IMG/VR virus record: IMGVR_UViG_3300035698_004454
Span: 1 to 23,478 of that record
Origin: a virus
Length of the DNA stretch: 23,478 nt
Strand: one strand, 5' to 3'
Below are positions 7,263 to 23,148 of the stretch, in pieces (within the stretch, counting starts at the first letter, position 1; every line of letters begins with the position of its first letter). The position numbers were made by a program, and so were the translations under genes. A model generated the notes under the pieces. The model was not told the origin of the DNA. It searched no databases and worked only from the letters and a program-made list of their open reading frames with translations.

Positions 7263-7754
7263 TTATTCTGGTTGCGTTTCTGGTTTTGCCTTTGGTGCTT
7301 CATATCCAGCTTCTGCGTCATCATCTTTGCCGCTTTCGTCAACCTTACCGATTACCTGTGGTGCATTTCCGGGGCCAGTTACTTTATTAGTGCTGGCATC
7401 GTATGGATCTATCTGCTCTCTTGGCTCCACCTTGATGTTCATTGATGGTTCAGAGACCTCTGTGCCTCCCCCTCCATCGATGTCTAGGTTATCATCGTCT
7501 GGAATCTCCTCGACGATTAGTGCCTTTTCGAACACATCCATAAACTCTTTAACTTCCCAAGGTTTCTTTGGTGAGGTGTATTGTTCTTTTCCGTCCTCGG
7601 TCAAGATTTGGTTAGTTAAATGTTTGGCGAAATGCTTAGCAATTCCCTTTGGGTACTGCTTTTTTACTCCTGGCTTAAAGGTGTATGGCTTTCCATTCCA
7701 GTAGCCAGTAAAAGGTTTCTCTGTGAAGTTGAAGAAAATGTAGTGTTTGGTCAT
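7263..7754 (-). CDS. Head-region hypothetical protein with acidic disordered C-terminus
   Basis: 163 residues in two parts. The N-terminal half (residues 1-85) is ordered: KHYIFFNFTEKPFTGYWNGK, then a K-P-G-V-K-K-Q-Y-P-K-G-I-A-K-H-F-A-K-H helix, a layout seen in small phage proteins encoded downstream of capsid genes. The C-terminal half is acidic, proline- and glycine-rich and probably disordered (DDDNLDIDGGGGTEVSEP, ending KAKPETQPE). It has no cysteines and no membrane segment. It is preceded by a 116-base spacer with a stem-loop. A head-tail or decoration accessory role is inferred from position only. Confidence 0.65.
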   Translation of the reverse strand: MTKHYIFFNFTEKPFTGYWNGKPYTFKPGVKKQYPKGIAKHFAKHLTNQILTEDGKEQYTSPKKPWEVKEFMDVFEKALIVEEIPDDDNLDIDGGGGTEVSEPSMNIKVEPREQIDPYDASTNKVTGPGNAPQVIGKVDESGKDDDAEAGYEAPKAKPETQPE

Positions 7755-13618: not shown

Positions 13619-15361
13619 TTATTCATTACGCCAGTCTTCTTCGTCCTTGTCCCACCATTCTTCTTCTGTTTTTACGCCCTTTCCAAACATTTCTTCGGGG
13701 TCGAAGTCAACAGTCCCATCCGGGTTGACGACGTAACTATCTGCTGGTTTGTCCGGGTCTCCGCTAACGATACCGCCGGAGTCTCCGAATCTTGATATAC
13801 CAACCCTCCAATATATAGTGGCGTGTACCCAATCATCTCGATCGTTTCTTAGCCATTTATATCTTGGAACGTTCAGCGCGTTGTCATCATCAACAACTCG
13901 ATAGATATGAGACCAATGCAACCAGTAGTCATGCCAGTCTTCTATCATCCCACCGAATAGCTTCATCCTTTTGTCTCGCCACTCATCAACTGAAAGCTGA
14001 ATCATTCTGTTTCTATCCACGACTACGTTTCCACTCTCATCCTTTTCGCCCCAACGTATCAATTGCATTGTTTTCCTGTCTTGGGCGTAGTGGCATAGGA
14101 ACACTCGGCCGGGGTATGCTTCTCGTAGTTTTCTTGATCCGATGATATCTCCACCCTGATCTATTACCATTATACTATTTGGGAACGCTTTTAGGAAGTA
14201 TTCTAGTGTTTCGTTCAGCGCTAGCTTATTTACTTTGTCTGGCATGTAGTCTTTAACCTGCCCGAATCCTAGCAGTCCCTGCTTATTGCCATATACGTAT
14301 CTGAGGTCTATTCCGGTGTCAACACCGATGACCATCCTGCCCTGGTACAGATTCTTCTCGTCGGTCCAGGCTCCCTTAATCATGTCTTCTGTGACGCTGT
14401 TTCCGCCTCCGGAGTACGCCAGCCCTAGAACTTTGTTATAAAAATAGTCCATTGTCTGCTTGCCCTTTTGGACTTCGATAAACTTCTCGACTATATCTTG
14501 AGCCGTAACCCACGGGGCCATTAGCAACGATATGTGGTATCCGGACCATTTGGCGTTTTCCTTGCCCTTTTTGACCCTCCACTCGCCCACTGCTCGATCG
14601 TTTGGTTCCAGGACGGCCTTGCATTTCTTACACTTGAACTCCATGGTCTCCATGTCAATGCTCATCTTCTTTTCGTCTTCTGTATCCCAGGTAAGCATTT
14701 GCCACTTATCACAGTGCGGGCATTTAATGAACCATTCTTTTTGATCAGATAGATTCCACTCAACGTCTACTCCACTGTTTGGGACGCTGGGATGACTGAA
14801 CACATGGGTCTGCTTAAACTTAGAATGCTGCAGTCTGGCCTGGTAGTCAGCTACAACGTCTTGTTTTGAAGAGTCTTTTTCGTCATGGACTAATCTATCG
14901 GCTGTGACCATGATCGCCGCTTTCTTGGTCCACGTTCCACGGAAGTATACCATACTTAAGCCGATTTGTTTTTGCTCGATAGTATCCTTATCTGTTGTCA
15001 GCCCGCTTAGGTGGGGATTGTTTGAGATTATTCAATTTACTTTACCACCCACGAAAACAGAGACGTCAGCGTCACTTGGTAGGGTATAGATTATATCCAT
15101 CCGGTGATTCTCTGCGTCTCTTATGCTTTTCAGTATTTCCAGTGTACTCAACCCAATCTGCGCCGCCTTGGTTACTACTAGGTTATCGCTTTGGTCGTTG
15201 TAGATGTCAATTAAGAACTGATGTTTGAGCCATTCTATTCGCTCGCCCTTTTCGTTCTTGATCTGGTAGTAGTCTATCCATGCGTCAACGTTCAGAGCTG
15301 CCAACTCCTTTGAGTCTAGCTCCGGACTTCCACTGCTCTTTTTATTCTCCGGCTTGCTCAT
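13619..15361 (-). CDS. Large terminase subunit (GpA-like), interrupted by an in-frame TGA
   Basis: DNA-packaging ATPase and nuclease. From ATG 15361 to TAA 13619 there is one frame of 581 codons with one internal TGA at 15032-15034. Before it are 109 residues with a variant Walker A (KAAQIGLST, 65-73); after it come IISNNPHLSGLTTDKD and, from an internal ATG at 14953, a Walker B-like VTADRLVHDE, a zinc pair CPHC...CKKC typical of GpA-type terminases, and an RNase H-like nuclease part (VIGVDTGIDLR; VIDQGGD). Reinitiation at 14953 would remove 26 conserved-looking residues and separate Walker A from the rest. So this is readthrough, a nonsense mutation, a sequence error, or a genuinely split protein. 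The start overlaps the upstream gene by 20 bases. Confidence 0.85.
15032..15034 (-). other. In-frame TGA codon in the terminase gene
   Basis: The codons read GTA AAT TGA ATA ATC in the terminase frame. The reading frame is otherwise continuous for 471 sense codons downstream. One transition from CGA (Arg) would create it. TGA is not generally recoded here, since two ATGA gene overlaps use it as stop and no other large gene contains it. Confidence 0.8.
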
Positions 15362-15611
15362 TAGTTTGTGCTTGATTTTCTATTGAGTACGATCCGTCTT
15401 CCCAAACAGTTCTGACCTCTCCACAGAGTGGGCATCCTACCCTGGCTCCATAGATATCACGGATTGGCACCACAACGTCTGGCGCGGTTGAGTTAGAAGA
15501 AAACTGCTTTGTAGCGCTCCCTCTAGTCACTTGCTCGATTACAACAAACTGATGTTGACATTTTGGTTTACTATCAGTCGACAATGTATCTACTTCAATT
15601 GGTACTGGCAT
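15342..15611 (-). CDS. Small zinc-binding protein upstream of the terminase
   Basis: 89 residues. The N-terminus MPVPIEVDTLSTDSKPKCQH supplies C18 and H20; C61 and C64 come from GCPLCGEVRTVWEDGSY, giving a C-x-H...C-x2-C set that could bind one zinc ion. The centre (RGSATKQFSSNSTAPDVVV) is polar. No enzymatic domain is recognised. It starts at a TAATATG junction with the metallopeptidase candidate and overlaps the terminase start by 20 bases, so it is co-translated with the packaging genes and may assist terminase or DNA handling; that is inference. Confidence 0.7.
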   Translation of the reverse strand: MPVPIEVDTLSTDSKPKCQHQFVVIEQVTRGSATKQFSSNSTAPDVVVPIRDIYGARVGCPLCGEVRTVWEDGSYSIENQAQTNEQAGE

Positions 15612-17688: not shown

Positions 17689-17943
17689 CTAATAGTCTCC
17701 GACGATTGCATCTAGACTCTCTCGATCCTCCAGCGACAAGCAAAGATTCGCCGGGTGATCCGTGTCCAGTAGCAATTCGACTGCCCTCTCTTTTTTGATG
17801 AAGAAGCAATTTCTGCCCTCCTCTGTCGGGTGAGGGTTTGGACACATTAGATACATCCCACTAACCTCTAGCTCTACCCCACAGTTTGGACATCTCTTAT
17901 GTAAAAGATTTTGCCACTTTCGTTTTGGTTTTTCATCTACCAT
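17689..17943 (-). CDS. Zinc-ribbon protein
   Basis: 84 residues. Cysteines C18-x2-C21 (RCPNCGVELEVSGMYLMC), C34 and C46 (CPNPHPTEEGRNC) form a zinc-ribbon like those at topoisomerase C-termini and in small phage proteins. The C-terminal half is acidic helix (ERAVELLLDTDHPANLCLSL, EDRESLDAIVGDY). It overlaps the end of the methyltransferase gene by 7 bases, so translation is coupled and the product may work with that enzyme or on DNA; this is inference. The gene ends with TAG, which is rare here. Confidence 0.7.
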   Translation of the reverse strand: MVDEKPKRKWQNLLHKRCPNCGVELEVSGMYLMCPNPHPTEEGRNCFFIKKERAVELLLDTDHPANLCLSLEDRESLDAIVGDY

Positions 17944-19193
17944 ATTATCTTTTTACCATTTTTAAGTATATTTTGATCTTCCGTATAATCCATGTACCTC
18001 TGGACTATCACGTCTGCGAACTTCGGATCTAACTCTATGCCGTAGCACACTCGGTTTGTCTTCTCACACGCTATCAACGTCGCCCCGCTCCCTAAGAATG
18101 GGTCTAGGACTATGTCATCTACCTTTGAACTGTTGGTGATCGCGTAGACAATCAGCTCAACTGGCTTCTGTGTTGGATGTAGGTATTCTGATGTGGACTC
18201 CCGGCTCATGGTCCAGATGGTAGTCTTGCCGGCGGCTTCCGCGTCCTTTTGTCTCTTGGCCCATAATGCTAGCTCTGACTGAGTCTTCTGAAAGTCGATC
18301 ACACTTGCGTTTGTTCTGTCTCCGTAGAACAGTGGCTTTGTGTCTCTGAATGTGGCGTAGAAAAATGGTTCATGCTTGGCCCTGTAGTCTCCCATGCCTA
18401 ACCCTGCTGATGGTTTATTCCAGATAAGCTGGTACTTAACATCAAATCCATTCTGACCCAGCGCTTGTTCGAACGCATTTTGTGTTGTCGGACTATGGAA
18501 TATATAGAATGCAGCTCCTTTTTTCACCGTCTCGGGCCATCGTCCGAATGCCTCAGAAAGAAATATCTGGAAGTCTGCTGAATCCATCTTATCGTTAAGT
18601 ATCTTGGTTGATGTATTCTCGCCCTGGCCGTTGTAGTCGATGTTGTACGGTGGATCTGTGAACACTAGGTCAGCCTTGACATCGCCTAGAAGCTTCTCAT
18701 ACACTCCCTGGCTGGTTGAGTCTCCAACTATCAGTTTGTGTTGTCCTAGCTGGTACACGTCTCCGACCTTACTCTTTGGCTCGTCCGGGGTGGCTGGCAC
18801 AACGTCATCGTTCTTGTCAACCTCTAGGATTAGCTTTCTATCGAATCCGGTTAACTCTAGCATTGGGAGTGACAGGTCTTTCAGTTCGCCTATTACTAAC
18901 TCCATGTCCCACTCGGACTCGTTCAGCTTATTATCAGCCAGTCTGTATGCCTTGGCCTTGTCTGCGTCTATGTCTACGGTTAGAACTGGTATCTTGGCGA
19001 GGCCCAGGGTTTGCGCTGCCATGTATCGACCATGACCCACAATAATCACGTCGTCTTTGTCTACGACGATTGGCTGGTTAAATCCAAACTCATTGATCGA
19101 GTCAGCTATCTTCTCGACCTGTTTTTTCGGATGTTTTTTGGCGTTGCGACCGTATGGTCTGATTTCGCCTATTGACCTATCCTTAATTTCCAT
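17937..19193 (-). CDS. ParB-N domain fused to beta-class DNA methyltransferase
   Basis: 418 residues. Residues 1-100 are a ParB/sulfiredoxin-like domain (SIGEIRPYGRNAKKHPKKQV, GHGRYMAAQTLGLAKIPVL, RLADNKLNE). Residues 145-410 are an SAM-dependent amino-methyltransferase: catalytic DPPY at 180-183, HPTQKP at 339-344, and SAM-binding DPFLGSGAT at 364-372. The DPPY-before-FxGSG order defines the beta class; DPPY favours N6-adenine methylation. This fusion is common in phages and prophages. It probably modifies phage DNA against host restriction or marks host DNA; no restriction enzyme is visible beside it, so it is an orphan enzyme. The start lies inside the end of the exonuclease gene (11-base overlap). 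Confidence 0.92.
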   Translation of the reverse strand: MEIKDRSIGEIRPYGRNAKKHPKKQVEKIADSINEFGFNQPIVVDKDDVIIVGHGRYMAAQTLGLAKIPVLTVDIDADKAKAYRLADNKLNESEWDMELVIGELKDLSLPMLELTGFDRKLILEVDKNDDVVPATPDEPKSKVGDVYQLGQHKLIVGDSTSQGVYEKLLGDVKADLVFTDPPYNIDYNGQGENTSTKILNDKMDSADFQIFLSEAFGRWPETVKKGAAFYIFHSPTTQNAFEQALGQNGFDVKYQLIWNKPSAGLGMGDYRAKHEPFFYATFRDTKPLFYGDRTNASVIDFQKTQSELALWAKRQKDAEAAGKTTIWTMSRESTSEYLHPTQKPVELIVYAITNSSKVDDIVLDPFLGSGATLIACEKTNRVCYGIELDPKFADVIVQRYMDYTEDQNILKNGKKIIW

Positions 19194-20521: not shown

Positions 20522-22045
20522 TTATTCTTCCTTTAGATGTTTAGGCGTTTCTACAATCATACCACTTGTTGTGACTAATAGCGATGCGATTGATACCGCG
20601 CTTTCTACTTGAGCCTTTAAGACATTCGCTGGGTCCATTACTCCAACTCTCTGCCATTGGCCGATCTCTCCTGTTACCACATTGATTGCCTGGCCCTCTT
20701 TAATCTCTTGGTCATTGTCCATACCGACATTCTTCAATAGCTGGATAAATGGTACTTTCAATGCCTTGTTAAGAATCTCACTACTGGTCTTGATCCGTGA
20801 TAGTGTTACTCCGGCTCCGGCTACAACTCCGCCCTTGAACGCTGAATGCGTGGCGTTGATTGCATCTTCCACTTTATATCTTAGTGCCTTTTCTTCACTC
20901 TCTGTGGCAGCGCCCACCTTAATTACTCCGACTTTATTAGTGAATCTTGCGATCCTCTTTTTCAGTTTGATTTTGGAGTTCTCATCTACTGATTGGTCCA
21001 TGGCAGTCGTAATGTCATCTATTACTACTTTGACATCTGCTTTTTTACCTCGTGGGCCTACAATAACGGATTCCTTTTCTCGACAGATAAACCTATCGGC
21101 TCTGCCCAGATCAGAGATTGTTGCGTCCTCAATCCTATCTCCCTTGGACTCACTGAACACCTTACCTCCGGTCATCAGCGCCATGTCTTCTAATGCTTGA
21201 GTTCTATCTCCGTCGATTTCCGGGGTGCTGATAGCAATTCCTAAGAACTTCTGTTGCATCTTGTTTATCACTAATGTTGAGAGTGCTGTCTGTTCAACGT
21301 TTTCTGCAATGATTATTAGGCTGGTGATCTTCTTGGCCACAAGCTTCTCCATTATTCCGATGACGTCCTTGGCCTCTGTTAGCCGGTAGTCAGTGAATAA
21401 GATATAAGGCTTTTCAACCACAGCTTCCATTCTCTGACCGTCAGTTACCATGTATGGACTAATGTATCCTCTCTCGATGGTGATTCCCTCTTTTAGCTCT
21501 GAGAATGTCTCCATTGTGCCTGACCGATCGACTGTCAATGATCCCTCAACTCCTAGATCATACCATGCGTCTGCTATAATCTTTGCCACTTTTTCGTCGT
21601 CGAAACTAACTAGGGCAACCTTTAGCAATTCTTCTCTGCTCTTAACTGGTTTTGCCTCAGCATTAATGTAGGCCTCACATTCTTCAAATCCTTTTTTGAG
21701 TTCCTTTTCAATTTTCCGTCCGTCTTTTACTCCCTTGGACACTTCATTGATAATTGCCTGTAGAATAATGAGCGCTCCGGTGGTACCATCGCCAACACGA
21801 TCGTTGGTTCTGATGGCTGTCTCTCTCACAACCTTTAGCACTGCATTTTCTGCGGCATCTCCTAGCTCCAGGTCACGAGCGATTTGAACTCCGTCATCTA
21901 GGACGTGTCCATGAGTTAGTTTGCTGATAATAACCTTATTACCTGCCGGGCCGAACGTTGGCTTGATAAGGTCGACTGTTTTATCTACGGCCGATTTAAT
22001 AACATCAAATGTGTTATTCTGTACGATTTTTACTTTTTCTGACAT
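20522..22045 (-). CDS. groEL: GroEL-type chaperonin, compact phage form
   Basis: 507 residues against about 545 for cellular GroEL. ATP-site elements are present: FGPAGNKVII (31-40), GDGTTG (85-90, catalytic D86), GVVAGAG (406-412) and VEDA (D394, equivalent to E. coli D398). The apical substrate-binding patch keeps RGYISPYM (Y194, Y198). Differences: the usual P-G-F-G-D-R-R is replaced by PEIDGDR, and the protein ends at HLKEE with no GGM repeat tail. It forms the folding ring for phage or host proteins, perhaps the capsid protein. GroES is encoded two genes upstream in the same run. The start follows a TAATATG junction. Chaperonin identity is certain; partner specificity is not. Confidence 0.95.
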   Translation of the reverse strand: MSEKVKIVQNNTFDVIKSAVDKTVDLIKPTFGPAGNKVIISKLTHGHVLDDGVQIARDLELGDAAENAVLKVVRETAIRTNDRVGDGTTGALIILQAIINEVSKGVKDGRKIEKELKKGFEECEAYINAEAKPVKSREELLKVALVSFDDEKVAKIIADAWYDLGVEGSLTVDRSGTMETFSELKEGITIERGYISPYMVTDGQRMEAVVEKPYILFTDYRLTEAKDVIGIMEKLVAKKITSLIIIAENVEQTALSTLVINKMQQKFLGIAISTPEIDGDRTQALEDMALMTGGKVFSESKGDRIEDATISDLGRADRFICREKESVIVGPRGKKADVKVVIDDITTAMDQSVDENSKIKLKKRIARFTNKVGVIKVGAATESEEKALRYKVEDAINATHSAFKGGVVAGAGVTLSRIKTSSEILNKALKVPFIQLLKNVGMDNDQEIKEGQAINVVTGEIGQWQRVGVMDPANVLKAQVESAVSIASLLVTTSGMIVETPKHLKEE

Positions 22046-22046
22046 A

Positions 22047-22322
22047 TTAATTTATTTTAATTATTGTTCTTTCCGGGTGATACAATTTCATATACACCCT
22101 CTTGGTTGATCCAAAGTCTTGAGCGAACTGTCGGACGTGAGCCTTAAGATAATGTGCGTTATCTATCCTGCCCTCGTACCCCTTATTCCATCTAAATACC
22201 TTACCGCATATCTTACATGTCTCTCGCAGTCTAGTGGGGCTTTCTCCTGTTTTAGCCATGTCATGGGGCTGGCCGAATCTACAGCCGAACCTGGTGCCAT
22301 AGCGTACTGGTTTATTTATCAT
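22047..22322 (-). CDS. Small C2H2-like zinc-binding protein between groES and groEL
   Basis: 91 residues. C36-x2-C39 (ETCKICGKVFRWNKGYEGR) and H57-x4-H62 (NAHYLKAHVRQF) make a C2H2-type set with a 17-residue spacing, longer than a classical zinc finger. The N-terminus is RYGTRFGCRFGQPHDM with a further cysteine at 14. The whole protein is basic, so nucleic-acid binding is plausible. It is translationally coupled to groES by an ATGA overlap and to groEL by TAATATG, so it is made together with the chaperonin. No known chaperonin cofactor resembles it. Function is unknown. Confidence 0.7.
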   Translation of the reverse strand: MINKPVRYGTRFGCRFGQPHDMAKTGESPTRLRETCKICGKVFRWNKGYEGRIDNAHYLKAHVRQFAQDFGSTKRVYMKLYHPERTIIKIN

Positions 22323-22600
22323 CTTAAAAACGCAATGATATCTTCTTCAAGCACTAGTTTGTATTCGACTTTTTTACCTTTTTCTTCTCTCTCGATTTGT
22401 TCGCCGGCAAAAGCACCGTATACAACCTCATCTCCTTTACAGATGTCTGGCACATTTTCTCCTACTTCATAAACAGTCCCGAACGCTTTTTGCTCTGTTT
22501 CTTCTTGAGCCGGCAGAATAAGTCCATGCTCGGTTTCGTGAGCCTCCTTTGGGGTTGGCCTTACGAGTACCCAATTACCTCTTGGTATGATTTTTTTCAT
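22319..22600 (-). CDS. groES: GroES co-chaperonin
   Basis: 93 residues, close to the 97 of E. coli GroES. The N-terminus MKKIIPRGNWVLVRPTPKEA matches the first barrel strands; residues 18-36 form the mobile loop with GLILP (26-30), aligning with the hydrophobic I-V-L that binds GroEL. GTVYEVG (41-47), KGDEVVYGAF (55-64) and the C-terminal EEDIIAFLR are further family marks. It caps the GroEL ring and defines the folding chamber. The gene ends TGA TAA, two stops in a row, with the TGA inside an ATGA overlap with the next gene. It starts four bases after the upstream stop. Confidence 0.93.
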   Translation of the reverse strand: MKKIIPRGNWVLVRPTPKEAHETEHGLILPAQEETEQKAFGTVYEVGENVPDICKGDEVVYGAFAGEQIEREEKGKKVEYKLVLEEDIIAFLR

Positions 22601-22604
22601 AATT

Positions 22605-22850
22605 TTATTGTAGTTCTGAGAGAGGAGTGTCTCGTCCTGCTCTCTTGTTTTTTTTAATTATCTCTTTCCGCGCTATGGTTGCCTCATCCTCTGGCAATAT
22701 AATGACACCCTTTGGTCTGGGGCCAGCGTTTACCATCTTGGTCTCTACTATCTTGATCCTCTTTTCAATCCCTGCCCTAAAAAATGCAAGGATTAAAAAT
22801 ACTAATATAGATGTCAAGAGTCCTAAAATGTAGCCGAGGATAAGGTCCAT
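22605..22850 (-). CDS. Single-pass membrane protein
   Basis: 81 residues. Residues about 4-25 are a strong transmembrane helix (LILGYILGLLTSILVFLILA), followed by a basic tail (GIEKRIKIVETKMVNAGPRP, ARKEIIKKNKRAGRDTP). The short N-terminus and positive C-terminal side suggest N-out, C-in. Size and shape would fit an inner-membrane spanin or holin accessory, but no lysis gene is next to it; it lies just before groES. It is separated by four bases from both neighbouring genes, consistent with coupling. Function is unknown. Confidence 0.65.
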   Translation of the reverse strand: MDLILGYILGLLTSILVFLILAFFRAGIEKRIKIVETKMVNAGPRPKGVIILPEDEATIARKEIIKKNKRAGRDTPLSELQ

Positions 22851-22854
22851 ATGT

Positions 22855-23148
22855 TTATGCTTCTGGGTTATCTAATTTTGGTGCTGGTGCTGGTGCGGCT
22901 GTGTCTCCCTTAGGCACTTCTCTACCTCTCATACTAACAATGATTGGATCAGCTACGACCCGTCCATCTGGTAAAATCTTTGCTAGAGCCGATAGGCCTA
23001 GTTCATATTTACCAAGCAATGGTCTTAACTCACCATTAAACCCGTCGATCCGCTCCTCTAAATCCTTTTCCACTGGTGGCTGGGCCGGCTGGGCCGGTTG
23101 AGCCGGGGGAGTTGGAACTGGTTGCTTTTCTTCTTTTTGTTCTGACAT
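22855..23148 (-). CDS. Hypothetical protein with proline-rich ends
   Basis: 97 residues. The N-terminal 28 residues are P/A/Q-rich (VPTPPAQPAQPAQPPVEKDL), the middle (30-75) is ordered (ELRPLLGKYELGLSALAKIL followed by VADPIIVSMRGREVP), and the end is disordered (GDTAAPAPAPKLDNPEA). There is no membrane span or cysteine. The ordered part resembles small phage proteins of unknown role. An ATAATCAA motif precedes the ATG by 7 bases in place of a clear Shine-Dalgarno sequence. Confidence 0.65.
   Translation of the reverse strand: MSEQKEEKQPVPTPPAQPAQPAQPPVEKDLEERIDGFNGELRPLLGKYELGLSALAKILPDGRVVADPIIVSMRGREVPKGDTAAPAPAPKLDNPEA

Follow-up and report, generated by a model that had tools for sequence, protein, structure and literature searches.

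GroEL and GroES are among the best-studied folding machines and are described as a two-component system. In the groES-groEL operons of bacteria (E. coli, CPR cells) GroES precedes GroEL, and the products combine Cpn10 and Cpn60 domains with a GroES mobile loop, an apical hydrophobic groove and the aspartates D52, D87 and D398. Divergent GroEL homologs are encoded by the phages EL (gp146), OBP (gp246) and AR9 (gp228); these chaperonins function without a co-chaperonin (PMC9598537), no interaction of the EL protein with GroES of E. coli was observed (PMC7185714), and a search for GroES in the EL and AR9 records was negative. T4 gp31 and RB49 CocO are GroES-like lids of phage origin for capsid folding, which work with the GroEL of the host (PMC9598537). 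Both GroES and GroEL are carried by some phages (PMC7185714, citing Marine et al. 2017); in Flavobacterium phage immuto, Bacteroides phage SJC03 and Cellulophaga phage Calle_1 the two genes are adjacent, and GroES is also encoded by 9 of the 17 GenBank GroEL phages examined. The original prediction for the locus studied here held that a complete pair is uncommon in phages, a view with which neither these counts nor PMC7185714 agree. Phage GroELs, GroES lids and pairs are already known (PMC7185714, PMC9598537), and what is new here is the gene in the middle. No description of a third gene fixed between phage GroES and GroEL was found in the literature covered, which leaves aside the survey of Marine et al. 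2017, where the gene could appear unlabelled; chaperonins go unmentioned in two recent papers on phages of Patescibacteria.

The window (the whole stretch of 23,478 bases that was analysed, identical to the complete IMG/VR virus record) encodes TerS, TerL and a major head protein, together with a weak match to a head-tail adaptor, and nearly all of its genes are on the minus strand. It is a genuine tailed-phage contig; no tRNAs or Rfam matches were found in it. The chaperonin cassette, its junctions and its upstream neighbours are as follows.

22855-23148, minus strand: 97-aa upstream neighbour, kept in the close clade and a few midB loci.
22605-22850, minus strand: 81-aa protein with an N-terminal hydrophobic stretch, an upstream neighbour in the close clade only (every tabulated midA locus, no midB locus).
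22319-22600, minus strand: GroES (co-chaperonin, Cpn10), 93 aa; PF00166, phrog_3188.
22319-22322, minus strand: ATGA overlap of the GroES stop and the start of the middle gene.
22047-22322, minus strand: middle gene ("mid"), basic protein of 91 aa whose C-H-C-C site is invariant, a candidate for the third component; homologs lie between GroES and GroEL.
22043-22049, minus strand: TAATATG junction of the mid stop and the GroEL start.
20522-22045, minus strand: GroEL (group I-type chaperonin), 507 aa; PF00118, phrog_5725, residue survey, trees.

The overlaps are as originally described, and, read from these junctions, GroES, mid and GroEL are translationally coupled in this phage contig. The relatives considered below fall into midA, the window's clade, and midB. 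The operon differs from those of bacteria in the extra gene and in a GroEL that falls outside the cellular clade. The window GroEL is 23% identical to each of the EL and AR9 proteins and is coupled to GroES and mid; every midA cassette that visibly extends far enough upstream has a coupled GroES gene there, which sets these cassettes apart from the EL/OBP/AR9 type. T4 gp31 and RB49 CocO differ in that their phages have neither mid nor a GroEL of their own. The adjacent pairs of immuto, SJC03 and Calle_1 come without a credible mid homolog anywhere in their genomes; an ORF in the corresponding slot of Calle_1 (L101 3684-3956, 90 aa) was considered and proved unrelated and cysteine-free.

Both chaperonin genes of the original prediction were recovered well above the Pfam cut-offs. 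GroES scored 48.9 bits against PF00166 (cut-off 21.1), and its relatives are 53-83% identical. Its mobile loop with the hydrophobic tripeptide, G26-L-I-L-P30, lies at 22525-22511, and the pattern G-x-x-x-P is found throughout the midA sequences listed; domain and loop together identify it as a Cpn10 protein. The midB GroES (e.g. L078 373-636, L065 450-701) does not have the usual G-hydrophobic loop and carries a shortened TFLPTEKG-type loop, the sequence of which suggests a different GroEL-GroES contact. GroEL scored 110 bits against PF00118 (cut-off 34.3) over profile positions 3-488 of 490, matched phrog_5725 with E = 1e-104, and belongs to the Cpn60_TCP1 family. Its two hydrolytic aspartates, predicted from the outset to be kept, align with those of the E. 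coli protein:

21788-21790, minus strand: GroEL D86 codon, equivalent to E. coli D87, ATP hydrolysis; conserved in 27/27 midA and 11/11 midB sequences.
20864-20866, minus strand: GroEL D394 codon, equivalent to E. coli D398, ATP hydrolysis; conserved in 27/27 midA and 11/11 midB sequences.

In addition, D51 aligns with E. coli D52 and is, like D86 and D394, invariant in the 27 midA sequences; with TxGP and GDGTT, the catalytic and nucleotide-binding features of the protein are complete. The apical positions for substrate and GroES binding are still hydrophobic (E. coli Y199, Y203, F204 and L234 correspond to Y194, Y198, M199 and I229; L237, L259, V263 and V264 to M232, L255, V259 and I260), and the inter-ring residues are only partly retained (R452 is I434 and E461 is D443). 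The equatorial segment is shortened compared with bacterial GroEL. The alignment and residue survey bore out that the P-G-F-G-D-R-R segment and the GGM tail are missing, both of which are typical of group I chaperonins and not obligatory. Absence of the tail is not specific to viruses, since the aligned cellular GroEL of a CPR bacterium (L114) also does without it; loss of PGFGDRR is more telling, because 15 of 15 CPR GroELs checked retain that segment. The pair is very probably functional.

The only invariant residues of the mid family (alignment A7, 21 sequences from both groups; window numbering) are C14, H20, C36 and C39.

22281-22283, minus strand: mid C14 codon, putative metal ligand 1; invariant in A7.
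22263-22265, minus strand: mid H20 codon, putative metal ligand 2; invariant in A7.
22206-22217, minus strand: mid C36-x2-C39, putative metal ligands 3 and 4; invariant in alignments A4 and A7.

The pattern C-x5-H-x15-C-x2-C is likely a zinc site, to judge by its residues. Mid had been called C2H2-like, a label that has to be replaced: the HxxxxH pair is not conserved, H57 varies, the protein does not present the C-x2-4-C...H-x3-5-H set of a C2H2 zinc finger, and its PF00096 match (E 0.11) is below cut-off. Small zinc-ribbon and C2H2 proteins share with mid a CxxC knuckle and a beta-hairpin core, but mid has its own ligand pattern and a conserved helical C-terminal part, and it matches no family above any cut-off (Pfam, NCBIfam, PADLOC); PHROGs gave weak matches only, to phrog_2670 (function unknown). 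Beyond the metal site, the strongest shared features are a C-terminal YLxxHxR and then the helices. AlphaFold2 predicted three strands followed by helices for the window protein (pLDDT 87) and the same order for one midB member (pLDDT 82). No fold match was obtained at Foldseek E ≤ 0.001 in PDB or BFVD, and the best VIA Z was 3.8. In the well-diverged pairs window-L002, L012-L111 and L025-L027, dN/dS was 0.13-0.18 for mid and roughly 0.05-0.11 for GroES and GroEL; mid is under purifying selection.

Whether the three-gene order recurs in related phages was followed from mid, GroEL and terminase as entry points, and it recurs from all of them. Scans with mid alone yielded 5 relatives, its alignment 4 more contigs and the distant family 6 more, and all 15 new contigs had the order GroES-mid-GroEL. 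A presumed relative without the cassette (L007) was judged a chance hit, the match being 15 residues long and antisense to a terminase-small-subunit-like ORF of a different phage. When all ORFs of the retrieved loci were searched iteratively with a profile, mid members were recovered down to 14-24% identity; every mid recruited in this way (E < 1e-5) lies directly upstream of GroEL, and wherever a locus reaches to the GroES end, mid is flanked by GroES and GroEL. In the GroEL-based scan, 67 contigs extended 1 kb or more upstream of GroEL; GroES and mid are both present in 40 of them, GroES only in 2 and neither gene in 25. Mid without GroES did not occur, nor did mid at another place. The terminase-based scan, which is blind to the cassette, gave 22 relatives in which the sequence upstream of TerL spans 7.5 kb or more, and all 22 have the three genes in order, so that the cassette is a core feature of this phage lineage; the contigs behind all these linkage counts are related to one another, and the counts are therefore not independent events. 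The upstream sequence of the remaining terminase-retrieved relatives is too short to judge, and 4 of these also show the cassette. The opposite outcome, a middle gene absent in all relatives, was thus looked for and not encountered. At midB loci the upstream neighbours change (the 81-aa protein is present in 0/19 and the 97-aa protein in 3/19) and mid is kept. The mirror-tree correlation, computed for 12 taxa and so for too few to build on, was 0.57 for mid-GroES, 0.40 for mid-GroEL and 0.20 for mid-TerL.

Searches beyond the cassette were negative for mid. It was not seen outside the GroES/GroEL slot in the whole records checked, and tblastn against 50,697 GenBank phage records gave no credible match. 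The mid profile found nothing credible in the whole genomes of the 17 GenBank GroEL phages or in the searched GroEL contigs outside both mid groups. No relatives came out of a pattern scan across 84,980 prokaryote genomes, and a profile search of 380 Patescibacteria (CPR) genomes returned mid in 2, solely on virus-type cassette contigs. Phages with GroES and GroEL yet without mid do exist (L045, L048 and the GenBank phages); mid is thus not needed by every phage chaperonin pair, as related phages with both genes lack it. In L041 and L042, the closest mid-less relatives, an ORF of 424-449 aa that looks glycosyltransferase-like by eye precedes GroEL in place of GroES; the idea that both had lost GroES along with mid was dropped for L042, the full record of which has GroES at 39.9 kb. 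Contig 3300008050_005719 (L005/L011/L028) has, besides a complete cassette, a second GroES-like gene (7285-7551) downstream of GroEL.

We propose a dedicated three-gene phage chaperonin operon, probably in CPR phages, with mid as an accessory factor, a reading that we regard as an even call. The GroEL rings would bind phage late proteins and GroES would cap them, while mid would deliver or select substrates; alternatively, mid may tune the GroES/GroEL interaction where the apical PGFGDRR segment is rebuilt. Where relatives include the region, the terminase-portal-capsid block follows closely downstream of the operon, and from this position we infer an action on phage late proteins. A role in virion morphogenesis is probable. 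The earlier idea that the machine serves the capsid is only suggested by this position. That an extra cofactor might be involved gains from the strict linkage over deep divergence, and the biochemical part of that idea is what we infer: a physical action of mid on the chaperonin or its substrates seems about evenly poised. The stronger version, in which the CHCC protein belongs obligatorily, as third subunit or cofactor, to a distinct class of viral group I chaperonin and is a kind of co-chaperonin without known cellular counterpart that compensates for the rebuilt apical domain and steers the machine to phage structural proteins, is possible and somewhat doubtful. A conserved third gene, if a real part of the machine, would represent either a co-chaperonin factor of a new kind or a new form of chaperonin control, and may also help to explain how virions are assembled in hosts whose genomes are very small, probably Patescibacteria/CPR in this case. 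The idea is directly testable, since the proteins are of small size and expressible in E. coli.

The main rival is that mid regulates the operon: it would be a basic protein of the zinc-ribbon kind which, by binding mRNA or DNA of the chaperonin genes, controls how much GroES and GroEL is made or in what ratio. The window protein has a pI of 10.1 and the median net charge in midA is +12, in contrast to GroES and most GroELs, which are acidic; such a charge would suit nucleic-acid binding equally well, and mid sits between the two genes that it could balance. Its core is zinc-ribbon-like, with a weak similarity of residues 12-50 to the zinc ribbon of NrdR (Z about 2.3), but none of its fold or family matches is significant, the resemblance of midB to an archaeal RNase P protein included. 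The conserved C-terminal YLxxHxR and helices contain no obvious nucleic-acid-binding motif, and positional constancy of this kind, over deep divergence and with changing upstream neighbours, is seldom seen for regulators. We consider regulation rather unlikely.

Mid could also be an unrelated late protein (e.g. for minor morphogenesis or host takeover) that is trapped in its slot by overlapping frames. Start/stop overlaps are common in the cassette, a fixed position can come from coupling alone, the synteny of the lineage is strong overall, and small CxxC proteins of unknown role are common in phages, in line with the weak phrog_2670 matches. Mid nevertheless stays in the slot where the genes lie hundreds of bases apart (L023, L030, L170) and where the upstream genes have been replaced, and it neither occurs without GroES in contigs that show the upstream region nor turns up elsewhere in the whole records checked, so that a trapped bystander is unlikely.

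The GroEL tree gives a support of 100/100 to the window's clade and of 100/99 to midB. The cellular GroELs group at 100/99, apart from midA and midB, and several GenBank phage GroELs are nested within them. The AU test rejected a clade of midA with the cellular GroEL of CPR (p-AU 4e-9) as well as midA and midB as a single clade; the two are not sister groups, and mid is therefore either an ancient gene that was lost in places or one transferred between lineages. The comparison with cellular and phage chaperonins thus places GroEL outside the cellular clade, and a position inside a single cellular lineage, with bacterial genes on either side, was not what we found. Together with the retained catalytic and binding residues and the presence of the cassette throughout the visible lineage, this upholds the proposal that the phage brings its own folding machine.

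Among bacterial genomes, only 3 CPR MAGs (Patescibacteria KR13, Parcubacteria GWA2_48_9, WWE3 RIFOXYD1) matched the window GroEL. Their contigs with the whole or partial cassette are 4.9-27 kb long, and those of L111 and L112 are short and phage-like. The contigs G002:C28 and G002:C33 of the GWA2_48_9 bin (L120, L112, L183) probably belong to one phage genome, since they carry the two ends of a GroEL of this type. In the WWE3 MAG scaffold (L113, 4266-4739) a mid-GroEL segment, with the same mid as viral contig L037, is connected with bacterial genes through a stretch of N alone; for that reason it does not prove a prophage, and it is probably a scaffold chimera or a masked stretch. Matches to TerL were found in 7 of 380 CPR genomes, at only 25-33% identity, and carry no host signal. 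Patescibacteria/CPR are the likely hosts of the phage, an assignment that rests on binning. That the cassette is a captured groESL operon of a CPR host, an ordinary auxiliary host gene, could be read from the three MAGs but is highly improbable and was rejected on the AU test and the structure of CPR operons: each MAG has a separate ordinary GroEL, the measured CPR GroES-GroEL gaps (about 30-210 nt) are too short for mid, and the CPR genomes have mid on cassette contigs only.

Three other features of the window were noted. The TerL frame (15361-13619, minus strand) has an in-frame internal TGA at 15034-15032, where the 10 compared relatives have no stop; it may be a sequencing error, a variant or a broken gene, all of which fit. 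Two further small Cys-rich (CxxC) proteins (17689-17943 and 15342-15611, minus strand), without evident kinship to mid, are both kept near TerS/TerL in relatives. At 17937-19193 (minus strand) a ParB-like N-terminal domain is fused to an N6/N4 DNA methyltransferase (PF02195 and PF01555), and the presence of this fusion in relatives is variable or partial.
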